Of a stretch of 64,000 nucleotides of DNA, positions 20,640 to 63,127 are shown piece after piece. Source of the DNA: a bacterium. GTDB lineage: Bacteria; Myxococcota_A; Bradymonadia; UBA7976; UBA1532. The stretch covers positions 62,001-126,000 of the forward strand of contig JAUHYW010000014.1 in NCBI GenBank assembly GCA_030426085.1. The letters are read 5' to 3'. Each line of letters starts with the position of its first letter. Positions within the stretch are counted from its first letter, which is position 1. The position numbers and the translations under genes were made by a program. Below the pieces are notes generated by a model. It worked only from the letters and a program-made list of their open reading frames with translations. It had not been told where the DNA came from and ran no database searches.

Positions 20640-21700
20640 GTCTCGGGGTCCGTCGCGGCCGGCGCGGCTTCGATTGGATGACCCCGGGGGTCCACCGGAC
20701 CGGGGCGGCGTCGGGTCGGGGGGCCCGAGGGGTCGAGCGGACCGGGGCGGCTCTGGCTCGGCGGGCGACGAGGCGCCACCGCGCAGGCCCGGTCCGGTCC
20801 GCATGGGCGCCAGGGGTCCGTCGCGGCGGGCGCGGCTTCGATTGGATGACCCCGGGGGGCCCACCGGACCGGCGCGCTCGGGCTCGGCGGGCCTGGGGGT
20901 TCGATCGGACCGGCCCGGCTTTGGCTCGGCGGGCGACGAGGCGCCATCGCGCAGGCCCGGTCCGGTCTGCGCGGGCCGCGGGGGCTGCCGTGACCGGGGC
21001 GGCTCGGGCTCGACGAGCCCCGAGGACGCCATCGCGCTGGCCCGGTCCGGTCTGCGTGGGCCCGAGGGCTCGCCACGGCTGGGGCGGCTCGGGCTCAGTG
21101 GGCTCCGCGGGCTCAGCCGGCTGGAGCGGCGTCGGTCTGGCGGACGCCGAGGGCCCGCCCCCGCTGGAGCAGCCCCGGCCGGGCGGGCCTCGGGGGTGCG
21201 CGACGACCGGAGTGGCTTGGCTCGATGGGCCCCCGGGGGTCACCGCGGGCGGAGCGGCTGCGGACCGATGACCCCCGAGGGTCCACCGTGGCTGGGGTGG
21301 TGCTGCCCGACGGGTCCCGAGCTGCTCACGTCGACCGGCGCGGCCTCGACTCGATGGGCGCCGAGGGCCCGCTCGGCCGGCGCGGCTTCGGCTCGGCGGG
21401 CCCCGGCGGTCCACCGTGACCGGCGCGGGCTCGGCCTGACGGACGGCGAGGGCCCGCTCGACCGGCGCGGCTTCGGCCTGGCGGGCCACTGCGGTCCGTC
21501 GTGACCGGCGCAGCCTCGGCCTGACGGACGCCGAGGGCCCATCCGACCGGGGCGGGCTCGACCTGACGGACGCCGAGGGCCCATCCGGCCGGCGCGGGCT
21601 CGACCTGACGGACGCCGAGGGTCCATCCGGCCGGCGCAGGCTCGGCCTGACGGCTGCCGAGGGCTCACCCGGCCAGGGCGACCCCGGCGCAGCGGGCCGA
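20640..21700. repeat. Array of about 25 degenerate 42-bp tandem repeats upstream of the BREX promoter
   Basis: From about 20650 to 21700 a unit of 42 (occasionally 43) bases recurs roughly 25 times. A typical plus-strand unit starts GACCGGCGCGGGCTCG and ends near GGGCCCATCC. The clearest copies are at 21500-21660, where four consecutive units differ at only a few bases; copies toward 20650 are more divergent. Because 42 is a multiple of three, long open frames appear in several frames with 14-residue repeats, but none has a convincing start and all lie between kptA and brxE. This is interpreted as a non-coding minisatellite. It has no spacers, so it is not a CRISPR array. Confidence 0.8.
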
Positions 21701-25682: not shown

Positions 25683-28600
25683 ATGCGAACGATGTGGGGC
25701 CGGGCGATGGGTGCTCGTTGGTTGTCGACGCTCGGCGCGCTCGCGCTGCTGGTGGGCTGTGTGCCCGACGACGGGGGCGGCGAGCCGGAGGATGATCCCG
25801 ACGTCGGCGTCGATCAGATGGTCGCCCTCCTCGACGCTGAAGTCGACGGGGCCGATCTCGAGCCGGACGTCGCGCTGCCCGATCCCGATCGGGGGGCCCC
25901 GGACGTCGGGGCCGACGGCGGCGACATGGCCCCCGACGAGGGCCTGCCGCCCGACGAGGGCCCGCCGCCCGACGAGGGCATGCCCCTGACCATCGAGACC
26001 TGCGAGGACGCCTGCGGGCGCTACGCCGAGTGCGATCGGCTCGATGATCGCTTCGGCGACTACGACGCCTGCCTGCGCGATTGCAGCCGCATCAGCCGCG
26101 GCGGGCGCCCCGACGAGTGGTTCGACTGCGTCGAGCTCGAGACCTGCAACCTGCTGCGGCTGTGCCCGGTGCCGGCCATTGAGCCGCTGAGCTGCGACGA
26201 GGTCTGCGGGCTGGTCGGCGAGTGCGGGGTCGACCTCGCGATCCCCGACTGCGCGGGCACCTGCGAAGAGAACGCCGAGACCTTCCGCGCCTGCGGCGAC
26301 CTGCTCTTCGGCGGGGTCTGCGACGGGCCCGGCTTCAACCAGTGCGTCGTCGATCAGGTCTTCCCCGAGTGCCGGGCCCTGTGCGACGCGGGGGTGGCCT
26401 GCAACCTCGTGCGCGACGAGGCGTGCATCGCCGACTGCCTCGACGATCGCCTGTCGGGCGACCCCCTCGGCGCCTTGCGCGGCCGCCAGCTCGAGAGCTG
26501 CGTGCGCTTCGCCGCCGACGATTGCCTGGCGGCCGACGCGTGCTTCTTCCCGCCCGATCCGGGCGAGCCGGCGCAGGCCGATCCCGATCGCTTCTGCCAG
26601 CTCTACGAGGATTGCGGGCTCGGCATCTTCTTCACCTGCGACGAGATGATCCGGGAGCTGGGCGACGACCTCGCCTGCGGGCAGGGGCTGCTCCAGCAGG
26701 GCTGCCCGTTCGACGACTTCGAGCTGCTCGACGCCTGCCTCTTCGGCCTGGGGCCCGACCCCCGGGCCGCGCCGTGTGGTGATCTGTGCGAGGCCCGCGA
26801 GGTCTGCGGCCTGCTGCCCGGGGACGAGAATCAGCTCGCGTGCACCCAGGGCTGCCTCGGCGGGGGCGGCGCCGATCCCGACGATCAGGCGCGGGCCGAC
26901 GCGCTGCTGCCGTGCGCCGGGGTCGACCGCTGCGATGATCTGGTGGCCTGCATCGACGCCAGCGGCCCCGCCGCCGAGTGCGGCGCGTTCTGCCAGGCGC
27001 TCGACGGCTGCGGCGTCGTCGAGCCGAACTGCCTGCCCGACTGCGACCGGGACTGGCCCCGCGATCGGCACGCCGCCCGGCGGGCCTGCGTGGCCGAGGC
27101 GGGGGACGACTGCGCGGCGATGGCCGCCTGCGCCCAGCCGCCGCCGCCCCCGTGCGCGGCGTATTGCGACCGGATCGGCCCCGACGACTGCGGGCTGGAC
27201 TTCGGCGAGGGCTGCGTGGGGCAGTGCGACGACGCGCACTTCGCCGATCCGCCGGGCACGCTCCAGGACATCGCCTGCGCCCTGACCGCGCCGCTGTGCT
27301 TCGGCGGCGAGCGGGTCGACGGCCGCCCGCCCTACGACGTGGAGTTCTGCGCCTACGGCGACGCGCCCTACGGGGTCGATTGCCTGGGCTTCTGCCGGGC
27401 GACGACCGAGTGCGCCGGTGATCCCGACGGCCTCGCCGAGTGCCTGGTGGCCTGCGGCGCGGGGCTGGTCGACGACGACGGGCTGCGCTTCCTCGCCGCC
27501 CGGGCGTGCCTCGCCGCGCTGCCGGCCGACGCCGCCTGCGAGGCGGTCGAGGGGTGCGTGCCCCAGAGCGCCGACGCCGACTGCGACGCCTTGTGCGGGC
27601 GGGCCGAGGGCTGCGGCATCCCGCTCGCCGAGTGCCCCGCGCGCTGCGCCGAAGACCCGCTGGCCCGGCTGCGCGCGCTGCGGGGCGAGCTGTGCATCGC
27701 GCCCGAGGCCGCGTGTGAAGAGGTCGACGCCTGCATCCTGCCGCCGGCCTACGATCCCGCGGTCGAGGTCGAGCAGGGGCTCATCGGAGAGGCCGCCTTC
27801 TGCGCGGTCTTCGATGGGTGCCCCGAGGCCGAGTTCAACCTCGGCGACTGCGGCTTCCTCTATCAGGATCTGCTCGACTTCGTCGGCCCCGAGGGGGTGG
27901 CCTGCGCCCGCGACGGGCTGGTGATCTGCAGCCCCTTCCTCGACGAGGTCTTCGAGTGCTTCGACGGCGGCGGGGCCGAGCCGAGCCCCATCGTCGAGCC
28001 GTGCGCGGTGCTGTGTGAGGCCCAGCGCTTCTGCGACCCGGACGCGCCGGCGCAGCGGGACTGCGAGCTCGAGTGTCAGGGGCAGGTGGTGCCCGGCGAT
28101 CAGGATGGCTTGCAGCGGGTCGTGCCCCAGCTCCAGTGCGGCTCGGCGTGGTCCTGCCCCGACCTCGACGCCTGCCTCGACGCCTCGACCCCCGAGGCCA
28201 TCTGCGCCGCGGACTGCGCCGCCCGCGCCGCCTGCGGGGCGGTGCCCGACGCCCTCGACTGCGAGGTGCGGTGCCTCGAAGACTTCTCCCGGATCCGCGA
28301 GATCCAGCGGCGGGCGTGCTTCGCCGGCGTCGATCCCGCCGACTGCGCGGCCGTCGCCGAGTGCGAGCCGCCGCCGCCGCTGCCCTGTGATCTGGCGTGC
28401 GCGGCGCTCGACGCCTGCCAGCTCGGGGTCGAGCGCTGTGAGCCCCTGTGCGACGACGCCGGCGCGCTCGATCCGGCGGGCGAGGCCCAGCGCATCGCCT
28501 GCCTCGTGGCGGCCGGGGACGACTGCGAAGCGGTCGCGGCGTGCGAGGCCGATCCGGGCGACGGGGGCGGGGCGTGCTTCGCGTGGTGCCGGGCGACGAC

Positions 28601-29726
28601 CGAGTGCGCCGCCGAGCCGGTCGAGGATCTGCCGACCTGCCTGACCCGCTGCCTCGTGGGCTTCGAGGACGGCGACGCCCTGCGCTTCGCCGCCGCCGAG
28701 CCGTGCCTGGACGACGCCGGGGCCGGCGCGGCGTGCCCCGATCTGCTCGCCTGCGTGCCGGCCGAGGCGGCGGTGGACTGCGAGGCGTACTGCGGCGCGC
28801 TCGACGACTGCCGGGTGCCCGCCGAAGGCTGCCGGGCGGACTGCGCCGCCGAGCCGGATCTCGCGGCGGCGGTCTGCGTGGCCGACACCCTGCGCACCGG
28901 GGGGCGCTGCACCGGGGTCGCCGCCTGCGTGGGCTACGCGCCGCCGCCGGCCGACGCGGTCTGCCGGGGCCTGTGCGAGCGGCGGATCGAGTGCGACCCC
29001 GCGGTCGACCCGTTCCTGTGCCGCCTCGACTGCACCCCGACCCCGCCCGCGGGGCCGTTCCAGCTCGCGTGTATGGACTTCGCCGGCTGCGACGCCGAGC
29101 TGGGCGCCTGCCTCGCGCTCGACGACACGCCCGATCCCATCTGCGTCGAGCTGTGCGCCACGGCGGTCGACACCTGCGGGCTGTACCCGGACGCGGCGGC
29201 CTGCGTCGCCGAGTGCACCGGCCGCGAGGCGGCGCCCCAGACCGACGACGGCTACCTCGGGCGGGCCGAGGCCTGCTTCGAAGACGCGGTCGACGCCGGC
29301 GGGCAGTGCGACGCCGGGGCGGCGGAATCCTGCTTGCAGCCGGCCTTCTGCGAGCGGCGGGACGACCTCATCTACTTCGCCGGGCCCCAGGGCCAGATCG
29401 ACACCGACACCCGGGGGCTGCCCGACGCCTACGCCTCGCCGTGCGCCGGCGGGGGCGCGGCCGAGGCCATCATCGTGATCAACGTCGAGGCCCGCTCGAA
29501 CCTGCGGGCCTTCATCGCCGACGCCGACTACGACACCGCGCTGAACCTCTTCAGCCCGTGCGACGGGCCGAACATCGCGTGCAACGACGACGACTTCAAC
29601 CTGCCCGACAACCTGTGGTCGAGCATCGCGGTGGTCGTCGAGCCGGGCACCTACTACCTGATGGTGGAGGGCTACAGCGACAACACCGGCACCGCGACGG
29701 TCGACATCACGGTCGAGGCGCTCTGA
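25683..29726 (+). CDS. Giant cysteine-rich modular lipoprotein (paralogue 1)
   Basis: A 1347-residue predicted lipoprotein with lipobox LLVGC (Cys26), started at the ATG at 25683 behind a GGGGAGA ribosome site. After an acidic Asp/Pro-rich linker it holds about 17 cysteine-rich modules, each roughly C-x3-C-x5/6-C-x(8-12)-C-x3-C (for example CEDACGRYAEC), often separated by a second Leu/Cys-rich half. The modules suggest a disulfide-stabilised extracellular rod. A C-terminal domain of about 120 residues (from RDDLIYF to TVDITVEAL) resembles a bacterial pre-peptidase C-terminal (PPC-like) beta-sandwich. The next gene is a shorter paralogue with the same first modules and the same end. The family was not recognised; the function is unknown, possibly surface adhesion or binding. 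Confidence 0.85.
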   Translation: MRTMWGRAMGARWLSTLGALALLVGCVPDDGGGEPEDDPDVGVDQMVALLDAEVDGADLEPDVALPDPDRGAPDVGADGGDMAPDEGLPPDEGPPPDEGMPLTIETCEDACGRYAECDRLDDRFGDYDACLRDCSRISRGGRPDEWFDCVELETCNLLRLCPVPAIEPLSCDEVCGLVGECGVDLAIPDCAGTCEENAETFRACGDLLFGGVCDGPGFNQCVVDQVFPECRALCDAGVACNLVRDEACIADCLDDRLSGDPLGALRGRQLESCVRFAADDCLAADACFFPPDPGEPAQADPDRFCQLYEDCGLGIFFTCDEMIRELGDDLACGQGLLQQGCPFDDFELLDACLFGLGPDPRAAPCGDLCEAREVCGLLPGDENQLACTQGCLGGGGADPDDQARADALLPCAGVDRCDDLVACIDASGPAAECGAFCQALDGCGVVEPNCLPDCDRDWPRDRHAARRACVAEAGDDCAAMAACAQPPPPPCAAYCDRIGPDDCGLDFGEGCVGQCDDAHFADPPGTLQDIACALTAPLCFGGERVDGRPPYDVEFCAYGDAPYGVDCLGFCRATTECAGDPDGLAECLVACGAGLVDDDGLRFLAARACLAALPADAACEAVEGCVPQSADADCDALCGRAEGCGIPLAECPARCAEDPLARLRALRGELCIAPEAACEEVDACILPPAYDPAVEVEQGLIGEAAFCAVFDGCPEAEFNLGDCGFLYQDLLDFVGPEGVACARDGLVICSPFLDEVFECFDGGGAEPSPIVEPCAVLCEAQRFCDPDAPAQRDCELECQGQVVPGDQDGLQRVVPQLQCGSAWSCPDLDACLDASTPEAICAADCAARAACGAVPDALDCEVRCLEDFSRIREIQRRACFAGVDPADCAAVAECEPPPPLPCDLACAALDACQLGVERCEPLCDDAGALDPAGEAQRIACLVAAGDDCEAVAACEADPGDGGGACFAWCRATTECAAEPVEDLPTCLTRCLVGFEDGDALRFAAAEPCLDDAGAGAACPDLLACVPAEAAVDCEAYCGALDDCRVPAEGCRADCAAEPDLAAAVCVADTLRTGGRCTGVAACVGYAPPPADAVCRGLCERRIECDPAVDPFLCRLDCTPTPPAGPFQLACMDFAGCDAELGACLALDDTPDPICVELCATAVDTCGLYPDAAACVAECTGREAAPQTDDGYLGRAEACFEDAVDAGGQCDAGAAESCLQPAFCERRDDLIYFAGPQGQIDTDTRGLPDAYASPCAGGGAAEAIIVINVEARSNLRAFIADADYDTALNLFSPCDGPNIACNDDDFNLPDNLWSSIAVVVEPGTYYLMVEGYSDNTGTATVDITVEAL

Positions 29727-29745
29727 TCGGACCGGGGGTCCGATG

Positions 29746-29774
29746 TTGGGCCGCCGCGCCCGCTCGTGGATAAT
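29746..29774 (+). promoter_or_regulatory. Sigma-70-like promoter of the second cysteine-rich lipoprotein gene
   Basis: TTGGGC (29746-29751) and GATAAT (29769-29774) are 17 bases apart. A start near 29781 leaves about 23 bases to the ATG at 29804, which has a GGAGGAG ribosome site. The -35 match is weak. Confidence 0.45.
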
Positions 29775-29803
29775 GGGTCGAGCGATACGGAGGAGAGCGA
29801 CCC

Positions 29804-32008
29804 ATGGTGCGAGGTGGCTGGCGATCTGTGGTGGCGCTGTGCGCGCTCGGCGGCTGCGTGCTCGGCGGCTGCGTGCCCGACGGCGGCGGGGGTGACGATC
29901 CGCCCGACGCCCGGCCCGATCTCGAGCCGGCGATCATCATCGACCAGATGGTCGAGCTGCCCGACGTCGGCTTCGACGCGGCCCCCGACGCCGCGCCCGA
30001 CGGCGGCGCCGATTCGACCCCGGGCGACGCCGACGTCACCGGCGATTTCCTGCCCCCCGACATGGCCCCCGAGCCCGACGCGGCGCCCCTCGGCATCGAG
30101 AGCTGCGAGGCCGCCTGCGGGCGCTACGCCGCGTGCGACGAGCTGGCCGATCGCTTCGGCGACCTCGACGCCTGCCTGCGCCACTGCGAGCGGGTGAGCC
30201 GCCTCGGCCCGCCCGAGGAGTGGTGGGGCTGCGTCGAGCTCGAGACCTGCAACCTGCTGCGGCTGTGCCCGGTGCCGCCCATCGAGCCGCTGCCCTGCGC
30301 CGAGGTGTGCGATCTCGTCGGTGAGTGCGGGGTGGATGACCCCCGGGGCGACTGCGTCGACACCTGCGAAGAGTTCGGCGATCCGTTCCGGGCGTGCGGG
30401 GACGTGCTCTTCGGCGGGGTGTGCGACGGCGACGGGTTCCGCCGGTGCGCGGTGGACGTGACCTTCCCCCAGTGCGGGGCCACCTGCCTCGCCGGGGTCG
30501 CCTGCAACCTCGTGCGGGAGGGCGAGTGCCTCGACCGCTGCTTCGACCCCGACCCGCTCGCCCAGCGCAGCCGCCGCCGCGTCAACGCCTGCGCCGCGGG
30601 GGCCGGGGACGACTGCCTGCGCCTCGACGCGTGCTTCGTCGACCAGCCCGATCCGATCGGGGTCTGCGCCGGGCTGTGTGAGGCCAAGCAGCTCTGCGGC
30701 CTCGACCTGGGGATCGACAGCATCGCCTGCATCCAGGCGTGCAGCAGCGGCGAGCAGGCGCCGGGCGGGCCGGACTACGCCGCCGAGGGCGCCTGCGCCA
30801 ACAGCCCGAGCTGCCCCGAGTTCGCCGTCTGCCTCGACGCCGCCGGGGCCCGGGTCGGGCCGTGCTTCGCGTGGTGTCAGGCGACGACGACCTGCGACCC
30901 CGAGGCCGATCAGGGCCGCCAGGCGTGCATGACCGAGTGCGTGAGCGGCTTCGGCGACGAGGACACCCTGCGCTTCGGCGCGGCGGCCCCCTGCCTGGCC
31001 GACGCCGGGCCCGGCGCCGACTGCGACGCGCTGACGGCGTGCATCCCCCAGGGTGAGCCGATGGTGGACTGCGAGGGGGTCTGCGGCGCGCTCGATCGCT
31101 GCCGGGTGCCCGCCGAGGGCTGCCGGGCCGGGTGCGCCGAGGCCCCCGACCGCCCGCTGGCCATCTGCCTCGCCGACACCCAGCGGGCGGGCGACGGCTG
31201 CGGCGGGGTGGCCGCCTGCGCCGACTACGCGCCGCCCGCGCCGCCCGCCGCGTGCGAGGCGCTGTGCGACGTCGTCACCCCGTGCGACGGCGAGGTCGAC
31301 CCCTACCTGTGCCGCCTCGACTGCACCCCGCTGCCGCCCGAGGTGCCCGCGCAGCTCGCCTGCGCCGAGTTCGCCGGCTGCGCTGATCTGCCGGCCTGCC
31401 TCGCCCTCGACGGGGTCGCGAACCCCACCTGCGTCGACCTGTGCCCCGGGGCGGTGGCCTGCGGGCTCTACCCCGACGTCGCCGCCTGCGAGGCGCGCTG
31501 CACCGGCCTCGCCGCCAGCCCCCGCACCCCGGCCGACTTCCTCCAGCGGGCCGGCGACTGCCTCACCGCGGCCGGAGCGCCCGCCGCCTGCGACCCGGTC
31601 GCCGCCGCCAACTGCTTCGCCCCGGCCTCGTGCGACCTGCGGGACGACCTCATCTACTTCAACGGCAACCAGGGCCGGGTGAACACCGACACCCGGGGGT
31701 TGCCCGACGCCTACGACTCGCCGTGCGCCGGCGGGGGCGCGGCCGAGGCCATCATCGTGATCAACGTCGCCGGCCCGGCGAACCTGCGGGCCTTCATCTT
31801 CGACGCCGACTACGACACCGCCCTGAACCTGTTCAGCCCGTGCGACGGGCCGAACATCGCGTGCAACGACGACGACTTCAACCTGCCCGACGGCCTGTGG
31901 TCGAGCATCGAGGTGGCGGTCGACGCGGGCACCTACTACCTGATGGTCGAGGGCTTCAACGGGGGCACCGGCACGGCGACGGTCGACATCACGATCACCC
32001 CCCGCTGA
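29804..32008 (+). CDS. Cysteine-rich modular lipoprotein (paralogue 2)
   Basis: A 734-residue lipoprotein with two possible lipobox cysteines (LGGC18 and LGGC23) in a tandem arrangement. It has about 8 cysteine modules of the same C-x3-C-x5/6-C type and the same C-terminal PPC-like domain as the gene before it. The first three modules and the final module align closely with paralogue 1, so the two differ mainly by about nine internal modules. They look like a tandem duplication followed by module loss or gain. It has its own ribosome site and a promoter-like sequence, so it can be expressed separately. The function is unknown. Confidence 0.85.
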   Translation: MVRGGWRSVVALCALGGCVLGGCVPDGGGGDDPPDARPDLEPAIIIDQMVELPDVGFDAAPDAAPDGGADSTPGDADVTGDFLPPDMAPEPDAAPLGIESCEAACGRYAACDELADRFGDLDACLRHCERVSRLGPPEEWWGCVELETCNLLRLCPVPPIEPLPCAEVCDLVGECGVDDPRGDCVDTCEEFGDPFRACGDVLFGGVCDGDGFRRCAVDVTFPQCGATCLAGVACNLVREGECLDRCFDPDPLAQRSRRRVNACAAGAGDDCLRLDACFVDQPDPIGVCAGLCEAKQLCGLDLGIDSIACIQACSSGEQAPGGPDYAAEGACANSPSCPEFAVCLDAAGARVGPCFAWCQATTTCDPEADQGRQACMTECVSGFGDEDTLRFGAAAPCLADAGPGADCDALTACIPQGEPMVDCEGVCGALDRCRVPAEGCRAGCAEAPDRPLAICLADTQRAGDGCGGVAACADYAPPAPPAACEALCDVVTPCDGEVDPYLCRLDCTPLPPEVPAQLACAEFAGCADLPACLALDGVANPTCVDLCPGAVACGLYPDVAACEARCTGLAASPRTPADFLQRAGDCLTAAGAPAACDPVAAANCFAPASCDLRDDLIYFNGNQGRVNTDTRGLPDAYDSPCAGGGAAEAIIVINVAGPANLRAFIFDADYDTALNLFSPCDGPNIACNDDDFNLPDGLWSSIEVAVDAGTYYLMVEGFNGGTGTATVDITITPR

Positions 32009-32072: not shown

Positions 32073-32915
32073 ATGCACCGCGCCGCCGCCTTCGCCCTGC
32101 TCGCCCTCGCCCTGGGCGCCTGCACCACCGACATCCGCCCCGAGGTCCTCCAGGACGAGGGCGTCACCCCCGAGGCCGCCGCCGAGGGCCGGGCGTGGCT
32201 CGACAAGATGGTCGCGGCCCACGGCGGGGCCGACGCCTTCCGGGCCCATCGGGACGCCGAGGTGGTCTTCACCGACACCTGGCCGGCGTGGCTCACCCGC
32301 ACCGCCGCCATGCCGTGGGACGAGAACGGTCAGACGATCCGCATGGCGGCTTCGACGACCGGCGACGACGCCCGGCTGACCTTCGTCGGCGGGGATGACG
32401 ACGGCCACGCGTGGGGCCTCCAGAGCTGGATGACCTACACCGTCGAGCCCGACGGCGCGGTCGAGTTCGACGAGGACGACGACCTGCGCTTCTGGGTGCC
32501 GACGATGGCCTACTTCTTCGCGATGCCCTGGCGCATCGGCGAGGCCGACGTCGTCGCCTACGCCGGCACGCAGGACATCGACGGCCGCCCGCACGCGGTG
32601 GTCTACGCCACCTGGGGGCAGGCCGAACCCCAGGACGACATCGATCAATACGTGCTCTACATCGACGCCGAGACCCACCTGCTGAGCCACGCGGCCTACA
32701 CCGTGCGCGAGCTGGTGCTCGCCAGCCACAGCGCCGTGCGCTACACCGACGTGCGCGAGGTCGGCGGGCTGAAGGTGCCCCACACCCTGATCATGGTCGA
32801 GGAGTTCGGCAGCGACGCGGTGCTGCACCGCATGGAGATCGAGTCGGTGCGCTTCACCGGCGGCGCCCTGGCCGACACCCTGAAGCCCGACCCGAGCCGC
32901 GCCGGCTCGAAGTGA
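32073..32915 (+). CDS. Predicted lipoprotein, outer-membrane lipoprotein-sorting-like
   Basis: A 280-residue protein with lipobox LGAC (Cys17). The mature part starts with an acidic helix (VTPEAAAEGRAWLDKMVAAHGG) and continues as beta strands such as AEVVFTDTW and VVYATWGQ, ending in MEIESVRFTGG. The pattern, a lipoprotein with an Ala-Ala-x-x-Gly helix then a curved beta sheet, is like LolA/outer-membrane lipoprotein-sorting folds, but the match is weak. Its stop overlaps the start of the next membrane protein (GTGA, 4 bases), so they are co-translated. Confidence 0.65.
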   Translation: MHRAAAFALLALALGACTTDIRPEVLQDEGVTPEAAAEGRAWLDKMVAAHGGADAFRAHRDAEVVFTDTWPAWLTRTAAMPWDENGQTIRMAASTTGDDARLTFVGGDDDGHAWGLQSWMTYTVEPDGAVEFDEDDDLRFWVPTMAYFFAMPWRIGEADVVAYAGTQDIDGRPHAVVYATWGQAEPQDDIDQYVLYIDAETHLLSHAAYTVRELVLASHSAVRYTDVREVGGLKVPHTLIMVEEFGSDAVLHRMEIESVRFTGGALADTLKPDPSRAGSK

Positions 32916-60583: not shown

Positions 60584-63127
60584 TCAGCGGCGGCGGCGCC
60601 AGCCGGCGAGCACCCCGAGCAGGATCAGGCCGCCGAGCGGGCTGTTCTCGGGGCCGTCGCCCGCGTCGCACACACAGCCGATGGCGGTGCCCCGGCTGCC
60701 GCTGCTGCCGTCCTCGTCCTCGCCGCCCGCGCCGCCGCTGCCGCCTGCGCCGCCGTCCCGGACGACCACCCCCGCGTCGGGGTCGACCACGACGACGCAC
60801 GGCGCGGGGTCGGTGTCGTCGCAGTCGTCTTCGGCGCACAGGCCGTCGTCGTCCTCGTCCACGCAGGGGCACCCGTTGGCCCCCGGCCCGCCGACCGCGG
60901 GGTCGGCGTCGTCGCAGTCGACCTCGACGCAGATGCCGTCGTCGTCCGCGTCCTCGCAGCCCTCGCAGCCCTCGTCGGCCGCCCCGTCGCAGTCCTCGTC
61001 CACGTCGTTGCCGCAGCGCTCGGCGGCCCCGGGGAAGCGGTCCGGGTCGTCGTCGGCGCAGTCCCGCTCGACGCAGACCGCGTCGCCGTCGGCGTCGATG
61101 CAGCTCGGGCAGCCCTCGTCGATGTCGCCGTCGCAGTCCTGGTCGGCCCCGTCACCGCAGATCTCGTCGATGCCCGGCCGGCGGCCCGGATCGCCGTCGT
61201 CGCAGTCGTCCTCGGCGCAGGCCCCGTCCCCGTCGCCGTCCTCGCAGCCGCAGCCCTCGTCGGCCCGGTCGTCGCAGTCCTGGTCGATCTCGTCCCCGCA
61301 GATCTCCCGGGCCCCGGGGCCGACCGCCGGATCGCGGTCGTCGCAGTCGTCCTCGGCGCAGGCGCCGTCGTCGTCGATGTCTTCGCACGGCTGCTCGCAG
61401 CCCTCGTCGGCCCGGTCGTCGCAGTCCTGATCGACGAAGTCGCCGCAGATCTCGTCGGCGCCGGGGTTCGACGCCGGGTCGCCGTCGTCGCAGTCTTCGG
61501 CGGCGCAGGCCCCGTCCCCATCGGCGTCCCGGCAGCCGAGGCACACCCCGAACGTCTCGCCGGCCTGCGCGAACAGCTCGCAGTTGCCGTCGGGGCAGTC
61601 GGCGCCGTCCTGGCAGGTCGGCTGGCAGATCTCCTCGCCGTCGTCCCCCGCGCAGAAGCTGCCGTCCGCGCACGAGAGCACGCTGGGGTCACACGGGCGC
61701 CCGAGCCCCACGCCCTCGCTCTCTTCGCAGTAGGTGCCGCCCCACGGGTGGGGCAGGCAGGCGGTGTCGGCGGGGCAGTTGCCTCCGGTCAGCCGGCAGC
61801 CGTCGGACGGCACGCACGCCAGCCAGGCGCCGCCGCAGTTGTTCCGCATGCACTCGTTGTAGTCGGGATCGTCCACATCGCAGGCCTGGGCGCACTCGGC
61901 GAGGTCGTTGTAGGCCACCTGCCCCCCGCCGCTGGTGCGGTTGTAGCAGTCGAAGCCGCAGTCCTGGTCGGGGCAGCCCTGGAGGCAGTCGAGCAGGCCC
62001 TCGCAGTCGAGCAGATCTTCGGGCGGCTCGACGACCCGCTCCTCTTCGCAGGCGGTCACCTCGTCGGCGCACGCGCGCTCGAGGCAGGCGTTGTAGTCGG
62101 CCGCCCGCTGGCAGTTCTGATCGCCGCACCCGATGACCGCGGTGTACAGCCGGCTGCCGTTGACCGTGCCTTCGAGCAGGCAGTCGGTGAAGCAGTTGCT
62201 GTCCCGGCACTGGCTCACGCAGCCGGCGACCGAGAGGCAGGTGTTGCCGCACAGGCCGTTGTCGCACACCCCGTCGGCCGCGCAGGCCGCGTCGCAGAAG
62301 CAGAGGCCGTCGTCCGCGCGGCAGTTCTGGTCGTCGCCCATCGTATCGCGGATCCAGCTCAGGTAGCCGTCCACCCGCGACTGGAGCGAGAGGTCGAGGC
62401 AGATCGGCTCGCCGCCCACGCTGCTGTTGACCCCGATGACCCGCCACTCGCCCCCGATCTGCGCCAGCCCCGGGCCGCCGGAGTCGCCGAAGCAGACCCC
62501 GCTGCCCGCGTGGTCGCTCTGGTACATCAGGTCGAAGACCGACTCCAACTCGAGGGTGGTCGAGCGCTTGATCCCCCCCCCGCTCTGGCGGTTGCCGTCG
62601 CTCACCCCGTAGCCGACGTAGGTGATGCGATCGCCGATGAGCGGCGCGAGGGCGCCGTCGTAGGGTGCGATGGGCTCGACCCCCTCGACCGGATCGCGCA
62701 GCTCGATCAGGGCGATGTCGTAGAAGCCCACGAAGTCGGCCCCGGTGTAGTCCGGGTGCAGGTGGATGCTGCGCGCCTGGTGGAAGCTGCCCGCCGGCCG
62801 GTCGCCGCGGCCGGTCGGGTTGGCGTCCGCGCCGCGGTAGAAGTAGATGATGTCCGGCTGCACCGGCACCCCCTGCTCGCGCAGGCCCTCGGTGCAGTGG
62901 GCCGCGGTCAGCACCCACGTCGGGCTGATGAGGGTCGCGCTGCAGAATGAGCCGAAGTATTGCCGCTGGAGCTCGAAGGTCAGCGCGCCGACGGCGGGGA
63001 AGCCGGCCTCCCGCTCGCCGCCGACGATGGGGGTCGTCGAGCTGTGCACGGGCGGAGGCGGCTCCGGCTCGCTGCACCCGGCGAGGTGCAGCGCGAAGAG
63101 CGCGAGGGCGGTGGACAGGCGGCGCAT
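60584..63127 (-). CDS. Trypsin-like serine protease with MopE-type repeats and MYXO-CTERM tail
   Basis: An 847-residue secreted lipoprotein. Lipobox HLAGC (Cys18) precedes a chymotrypsin-fold protease with the full triad: His77 (TAAHC), Asp137 (FYDIALIEL), Ser216 (GDSGGP). Cysteine-rich modules follow (residues about 270-560), then six Asp/Cys-rich repeats of the MopE type (four full, two partial; for example DGDGACAEDDCDDGDP), which may bind calcium or copper. The C-terminus is CVCDAG, a hydrophobic segment LGGLILLGVLAG, and a final run of arginines, a MYXO-CTERM-type sorting signal of Myxococcota. A lipobox and a MYXO-CTERM tail on one protein are unusual. It is convergent with the hydrolase gene. 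Confidence 0.9.
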   Translation of the reverse strand: MRRLSTALALFALHLAGCSEPEPPPPVHSSTTPIVGGEREAGFPAVGALTFELQRQYFGSFCSATLISPTWVLTAAHCTEGLREQGVPVQPDIIYFYRGADANPTGRGDRPAGSFHQARSIHLHPDYTGADFVGFYDIALIELRDPVEGVEPIAPYDGALAPLIGDRITYVGYGVSDGNRQSGGGIKRSTTLELESVFDLMYQSDHAGSGVCFGDSGGPGLAQIGGEWRVIGVNSSVGGEPICLDLSLQSRVDGYLSWIRDTMGDDQNCRADDGLCFCDAACAADGVCDNGLCGNTCLSVAGCVSQCRDSNCFTDCLLEGTVNGSRLYTAVIGCGDQNCQRAADYNACLERACADEVTACEEERVVEPPEDLLDCEGLLDCLQGCPDQDCGFDCYNRTSGGGQVAYNDLAECAQACDVDDPDYNECMRNNCGGAWLACVPSDGCRLTGGNCPADTACLPHPWGGTYCEESEGVGLGRPCDPSVLSCADGSFCAGDDGEEICQPTCQDGADCPDGNCELFAQAGETFGVCLGCRDADGDGACAAEDCDDGDPASNPGADEICGDFVDQDCDDRADEGCEQPCEDIDDDGACAEDDCDDRDPAVGPGAREICGDEIDQDCDDRADEGCGCEDGDGDGACAEDDCDDGDPGRRPGIDEICGDGADQDCDGDIDEGCPSCIDADGDAVCVERDCADDDPDRFPGAAERCGNDVDEDCDGAADEGCEGCEDADDDGICVEVDCDDADPAVGGPGANGCPCVDEDDDGLCAEDDCDDTDPAPCVVVVDPDAGVVVRDGGAGGSGGAGGEDEDGSSGSRGTAIGCVCDAGDGPENSPLGGLILLGVLAGWRRRR

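Follow-up and report, generated by a model that had tools for sequence, protein, structure and literature searches.

Known systems and the p1-p2 locus

Gram-positive repeat-stalk adhesins of the Rib/alpha C type consist of an anchor, a repeated stalk, and a terminal domain. The same arrangement would apply to p1 and p2, two neighboring genes separated by 77 bases on the + strand of a 64,000-nucleotide stretch of DNA from an uncultured Myxococcota_A bacterium (contig JAUHYW010000014.1, positions 62,001 to 126,000; the window). Each product begins with a lipoprotein signal and an acidic linker (Asp/Pro/Gly); Cys-rich modules (M1, M2, and so on) follow in a chain, and a C-terminal domain, called the head below, completes the protein. 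Rib/alpha C-type repeats are near-identical and vary in copy number, whereas the modules of p1 and p2 have diverged and their number is fixed in the species compared. With the MYXO-CTERM surface proteins such as TraA, the pair shares its occurrence in Myxococcota, Cys-rich repeats, and a proposed surface role, but it has an N-terminal lipobox instead of the MYXO-CTERM tail and its module pattern is in no NCBIfam or Pfam model searched. The head resembles the PPC/collagen-binding domain (PF04151; ColG s3b; Bacillus anthracis collagenase PPC) as a C-terminal beta sandwich of the same predicted fold; unlike the collagenases, p1 and p2 have no peptidase, and their head contains conserved Cys and sits on a lipid-anchored module chain. 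Taken as a whole, we give somewhat better than even chances to the explanation that p1 and p2 are exported and anchored by a lipid, each being a stalk with a head.

A family of eight-cysteine modules

A hidden Markov model of the module recovered 8 units in p2 and 17 in p1, where two are degenerate. This agrees with an earlier note on this DNA, which had described two adjacent giant Cys-module lipoproteins with about 17 and 8 modules; both genes were confirmed (Table 1). Cys accounts for ~10% of the residues (137 in p1, 71 in p2), with eight in every module except the two degenerate ones, and 20 modules could be aligned with the eight Cys invariant (CX3C-X5-C-Xn-CX3C-Xn-C-Xn-C-X5/6-C). In BLASTP, p1 matched p2 with E = 0.0. 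When identities were computed module by module without the shared Cys, corresponding modules were 42-71% (M1-M3) and 45-61% (p1 M14-M17 versus p2 M5-M8) identical and the C-terminal domains 77%, against about 16-41% for non-corresponding modules. Because the first values lie above the last, the modules are homologous and not merely alike in composition, contrary to the case that the earlier note had named as refuting. Its statement that the proteins share their first three modules and C-terminal domain held; the shared tail, given there as the last module only, comprises four modules, since p2 M5-M8 match p1 M14-M17.

No significant family for the module emerged from Pfam or NCBIfam, whether the whole proteins or 20 single modules were scanned (NCBIfam Lepto_8Cys weakly matched 1 of the 20, E 0.056). 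PDB sequence searches with the modules matched nothing, those with the head gave weak PPC-type matches, and p1 and p2 were unmatched in the plasmid collection. The module profile matched at least 8 proteins of the window's own genome and was present in 14 of the order's 16 genomes. A sample of 237 genomes from across the phylum yielded 9 with matches, 8 of them in the same order; genomes beyond the phylum were searched with two whole-protein peptide patterns. The family is therefore large, no relative was found in Pfam, NCBIfam, or PDB, and it may represent a new repeat fold. Separately, a 2256-residue frame (L053:7651-14421, - strand) combines DUF4215 repeats with four modules of the p1/p2 type.

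AlphaFold2 predicted four helices per module in a three-module model (22 alignment rows; predicted local distance difference test, pLDDT, 90.3; predicted template modeling score, pTM, 0.80). A model of p2 residues 95-734, which leaves out signal and linker (13 rows; mean pLDDT 78, pTM 0.49), was helical throughout the modules with a head of strands. That the chain forms a rod is a prediction only. Foldseek comparison of the three-module model with PDB gave a best E of 3.2, and nine chains re-examined had Z values of at most 2.3, which does not in itself prove the fold novel.

The degenerate modules gave hints about the disulfides. Of 33 candidate segments, 30 could be read as degenerate six-Cys modules whose spacing is that predicted for a loss of Cys 1 and 5. 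Six such losses (D units) were assigned unambiguously; one loss of Cys 3 and 7 and one of Cys 2 and 4 were also seen. These paired losses suggest the pairing 1-5, 2-4, and 3-7, which leads to 6-8 as the fourth disulfide. Among the genes of the genome are one for VKOR and 12 matches to the DSBA family; a 941-residue open frame (G000:C54:99568-101919) contains four tandem DSBA-family matches.

Alpha-hairpinins, which are plant peptides, form a CX3C/CX3C helical hairpin, as described in PMC7191063. Complete modules of p1 and p2 carry the CX3C-Xn-CX3C motif, likewise with the two CX3C on neighboring helices, and the 1-5 and 2-4 pairs, suggested solely by the paired losses, would correspond to the alpha-hairpinin pairs 1-4 and 2-3. 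The p1/p2 modules are, however, bacterial, ~60 residues long, and built of four helices with eight Cys in long tandem chains. The likeness would fit a different explanation, in which the modules are the working part and the head is accessory: as chains of small disulfide-rich helical domains, they would inhibit or bind proteases or other enzymes, a role that alpha-hairpinin-type CX3C...CX3C units have. The existence of 17- and 11-module paralogues lacking a PPC-like head is in keeping with this, as is the alpha-hairpinin-type pairing. However, the module alignment has no conserved residues besides Cys and the Pfam inhibitor families were unmatched, and we regard a working role of the modules as rather unlikely.

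The head and the lipoprotein start

The predicted head has the PPC/collagen-binding beta-sandwich fold. Its model superposed on the ColG collagen-binding domain (5iku) with Z 12.5 and a root-mean-square deviation of 2.3 over 103 residues, and on 5sv5 with Z 11.5. The PPC domain of a Bacillus collagenase was matched, and Foldseek aligned the head to a PPC domain at 6e-4. The genome also encodes a protein that is 48% identical to the head over one stretch and whose PPC region scores 28.9 bits, above the Pfam cut-off.

Both proteins start with a hydrophobic signal and a lipobox near the N terminus, as in lipoproteins of the Lgt/Lsp type, and similar starts are found in most complete homologues. 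A lipobox alone does not reveal the side of the membrane, which leaves some room for periplasmic structural lipoproteins held in the inner leaflet of the outer membrane and not displayed on the surface. We find this improbable, although not strongly so, since PPC/collagen-binding-type domains are usually carried by secreted or surface proteins. A PPC-containing segment of a Grimontia collagenase was assayed for collagen binding, according to PMC6168687, which implies no ligand for p1 and p2.

Neither p1 nor p2 has the C-terminal Cys motif, transmembrane helix, and Arg-rich tail of MYXO-CTERM proteins, both ending in the beta sandwich. Elsewhere in the window (60584-63127, - strand), an 847-residue Cys-rich protein with a MYXO-CTERM-like tail is encoded (CVCDAGDGPENSPLGGLILLGVLAGWRRRR); its gene contains about 4.5 copies of a 144-base unit in tandem (60890-61536).

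Module history and chain length

Modules M1-M3 of p2 correspond to M1-M3 of p1, and p2 M4 to p1 M5 or M11. Between the shared ends of p1, a six-module block with the unit types D,a,b,c,e,f occurs twice in tandem, as M4-M9 and M10-M15; it opens with D, a degenerate unit of six Cys. With these copies, p1 runs from M1-3 through block A and block B to M16, M17, and the head, and p2 runs from M1-3 through a, e, and f to M7, M8, and the head; p1 has nine modules more, one whole block plus D, b, and c. One module of p2 is A-like (M4) and two are B-like (M5-M6).

In the block tree, block A from this genus clustered with block A from a second one (the Myxococcota metagenome-assembled genome KLAP118; support 100/99), and the (a), e, and f units of p2 clustered with block B of p1 from the same genus to the exclusion of block B of the next genus (99/97; 88/91 in the e/f tree). 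When e and f units of PPC-bearing and other paralogues were placed in one tree, a split with 91/84 support separated all A copies from all B copies, p2, and the 11-module proteins. The block duplication therefore appears to predate the separation of PPC-bearing from other paralogues.

These trees support the view, already put forward in the earlier note, that gene duplication and recombination between modules produced the pair: p2 e and f group with block B of the same genus, and the tandem block of p1, the mixture of A-like and B-like modules in p2, and the gene conversion of the heads described below all bear the mark of recombination. In the simplest history, an 11-module member of the family would have given rise to the 17-module class by duplication of the six-module block, before the split between PPC-bearing and other paralogues. 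A later duplication of the 17-module gene, within this genus, would have been followed by the loss of nine modules from the second copy, leaving 8. The 11-module PPC-bearing proteins of two other genera were considered as the ancestral state and rejected, as the e/f tree places them with the B copies with moderate support. A separate 11-module class of ~890 residues may reflect an ancestral 11-module state.

The variability in length implied by the earlier note was not borne out. In the sister species, the only other genome of the genus compared (contig JAUHXC010000016.1), the same pair is found in the same neighborhood with 17 and 8 modules and lengths of 1347 and 731 residues, at an overall protein identity of about 64-75%; copy number is therefore equal in the two genomes. 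Paralogues elsewhere in the family keep 17- or 11-module (about 890 residues) architectures across genera. Outside the genus, p1-p2 synteny was not found in the stretches examined. Module number looks fixed, and the difference in chain length would go back to an old recombination. A surface rod in which recombination often alters module number, thereby yielding diversity, might be expected from repeated modules, tandem paralogues, and traces of recombination. It is nonetheless very unlikely given the equal counts and near-identical lengths of the diverged sister proteins, the persistence of the 17- and 11-module classes, and identities between modules (about 20-40%) too low for frequent slippage.

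Gene conversion of the heads

The ends of the two proteins have had different fates. For M1-M3 and the last four modules, orthologues were 70-88% identical in amino acids and paralogues of the same genome 54-65% (the last-four-module boundary of outgroup G6 was set one module late, which leaves the genus's own four proteins, the basis of the conversion test, unaffected). The C-terminal domains of the window's paralogues, in contrast, were 79% identical in amino acids and 88% in nucleotides, and 58-62% identical in amino acids to their orthologues. Third codon positions of the heads agreed at 89% between paralogues versus 69-78% with orthologues, and selection at the protein level alone is therefore insufficient to explain the likeness. 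Among the four proteins of the genus, 33 head sites grouped by genome versus 10 by gene, compared with 31 by genome versus 156 by gene elsewhere; the best breakpoint lay at p1 residues 1235-1242, and none of 2000 permutations was as strong. The pattern of sites indicates that the heads were homogenized by gene conversion in this lineage while the stalks stayed different. Conversion of the heads, and not a change in module number, is the recent recombination at the locus. A donor direction from p2 to p1 was not significant (42 versus 26 sites, p = 0.068).

A proposed stalk at two lengths

Most likely, p1 and p2 are outer-membrane stalks of two set lengths with one kind of binding head, where we infer the surface location and the ligand. 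The N-terminal Cys would bear the lipid, and the acidic, flexible linker (~75 residues) would lead into a chain of ~60-residue four-helix modules, each probably held by four disulfides. At the far end, the PPC/collagen-binding-type head would most likely bind a polymer or protein ligand, and the length of the stalk would set its distance from the cell.

Several points tell against this proposal. Structure prediction, a check suggested in the earlier note, gave four-helix modules and a beta-sandwich head but left the overall shape of p2 unsettled because of its low pTM. The heads score 14.0 (p1) and 13.7 (p2) bits against PF04151, under the Pfam gathering score of 25.9. The 2-4 and 3-7 pairs come from one or two cases each, p2 M4 was placed with A-type units in a 60-residue tree with weak support, and a single sister species underlies the view that length is fixed.

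Since the heads that the two adjacent genes carry on 17 and 8 modules are nearly alike, and conversion has kept them so, the pair would be a natural test of stalk length alone. More tentatively, and on balance doubtfully, the modules could be a new disulfide-stapled four-helix repeat fold, largely of one Myxococcota order and used for stalks of 8, 11, or 17 modules, the tandem pair showing one kind of head at two heights with conversion keeping the heads alike. The high Cys content suggests that the modules might serve in the envelope to bind or buffer metal ions or redox equivalents, but this is most improbable, as Cys are lost in specific pairs, the CX3C pairs lie on helices, His are few, an export signal is present, and oxidative folding enzymes are encoded.

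Features of the locus

Table 1. Features of p1, p2, and the adjoining gene (window coordinates)
Feature	Position	Strand	Basis
p1: 1347-residue lipoprotein, 17 modules and PPC-like head, ATG start	25683..29726	+	
p1 signal peptide, lipobox LVGC, predicted lipidated Cys26	25683..25757	+	sequence
p1 linker, acidic, Asp/Pro/Gly-rich, probably disordered	25758..25994	+	sequence
p1 M1-M3, matching p2 M1-M3	25995..26552	+	
p1 block A (D,a,b,c,e,f), M4-M9, of which M4 is degenerate with 6 Cys	26589..27746	+	
p1 block B (D,a,b,c,e,f repeated), M10-M15, of which M10 is degenerate with 6 Cys	27792..28940	+	
p1 M16-M17, matching p2 M7-M8	28956..29333	+	
p1 C-terminal PPC/collagen-binding-domain-like beta sandwich	29334..29723	+	fold via homology to p2 model
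p1 side of gene-conversion tract (~residues 1236-1242 to end)	29406..29723	+	
p2: 734-residue lipoprotein, 8 modules and PPC-like head, ATG start	29804..32008	+	
p2 signal peptide, lipobox LGGC, predicted lipidated Cys23	29804..29869	+	sequence
p2 acidic linker	29870..30097	+	sequence
p2 M1-M3	30098..30649	+	
p2 M4, type a, A-like (weak support)	30662..30850	+	
p2 M5-M6, types e,f, B-like, matching p1 M14-M15	30860..31234	+	
p2 M7-M8, matching p1 M16-M17	31247..31618	+	
p2 C-terminal PPC/collagen-binding-domain-like head	31619..32005	+	
p2 side of gene-conversion tract	31688..32005	+	
Downstream lipoprotein directly after p2, LBF_0142-like (E 4.8e-37, under the model's curated cut-off)	32073..32915	+	

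The gene of the LBF_0142-like lipoprotein is kept beside p1-p2 in the sister species (82% identical), and its product is a possible operon partner of the pair. Upstream, at 20645-21688 of the window, GC-rich tandem arrays with periods of 42, 85, 127, and 168 bases overlap long open reading frames on both strands.

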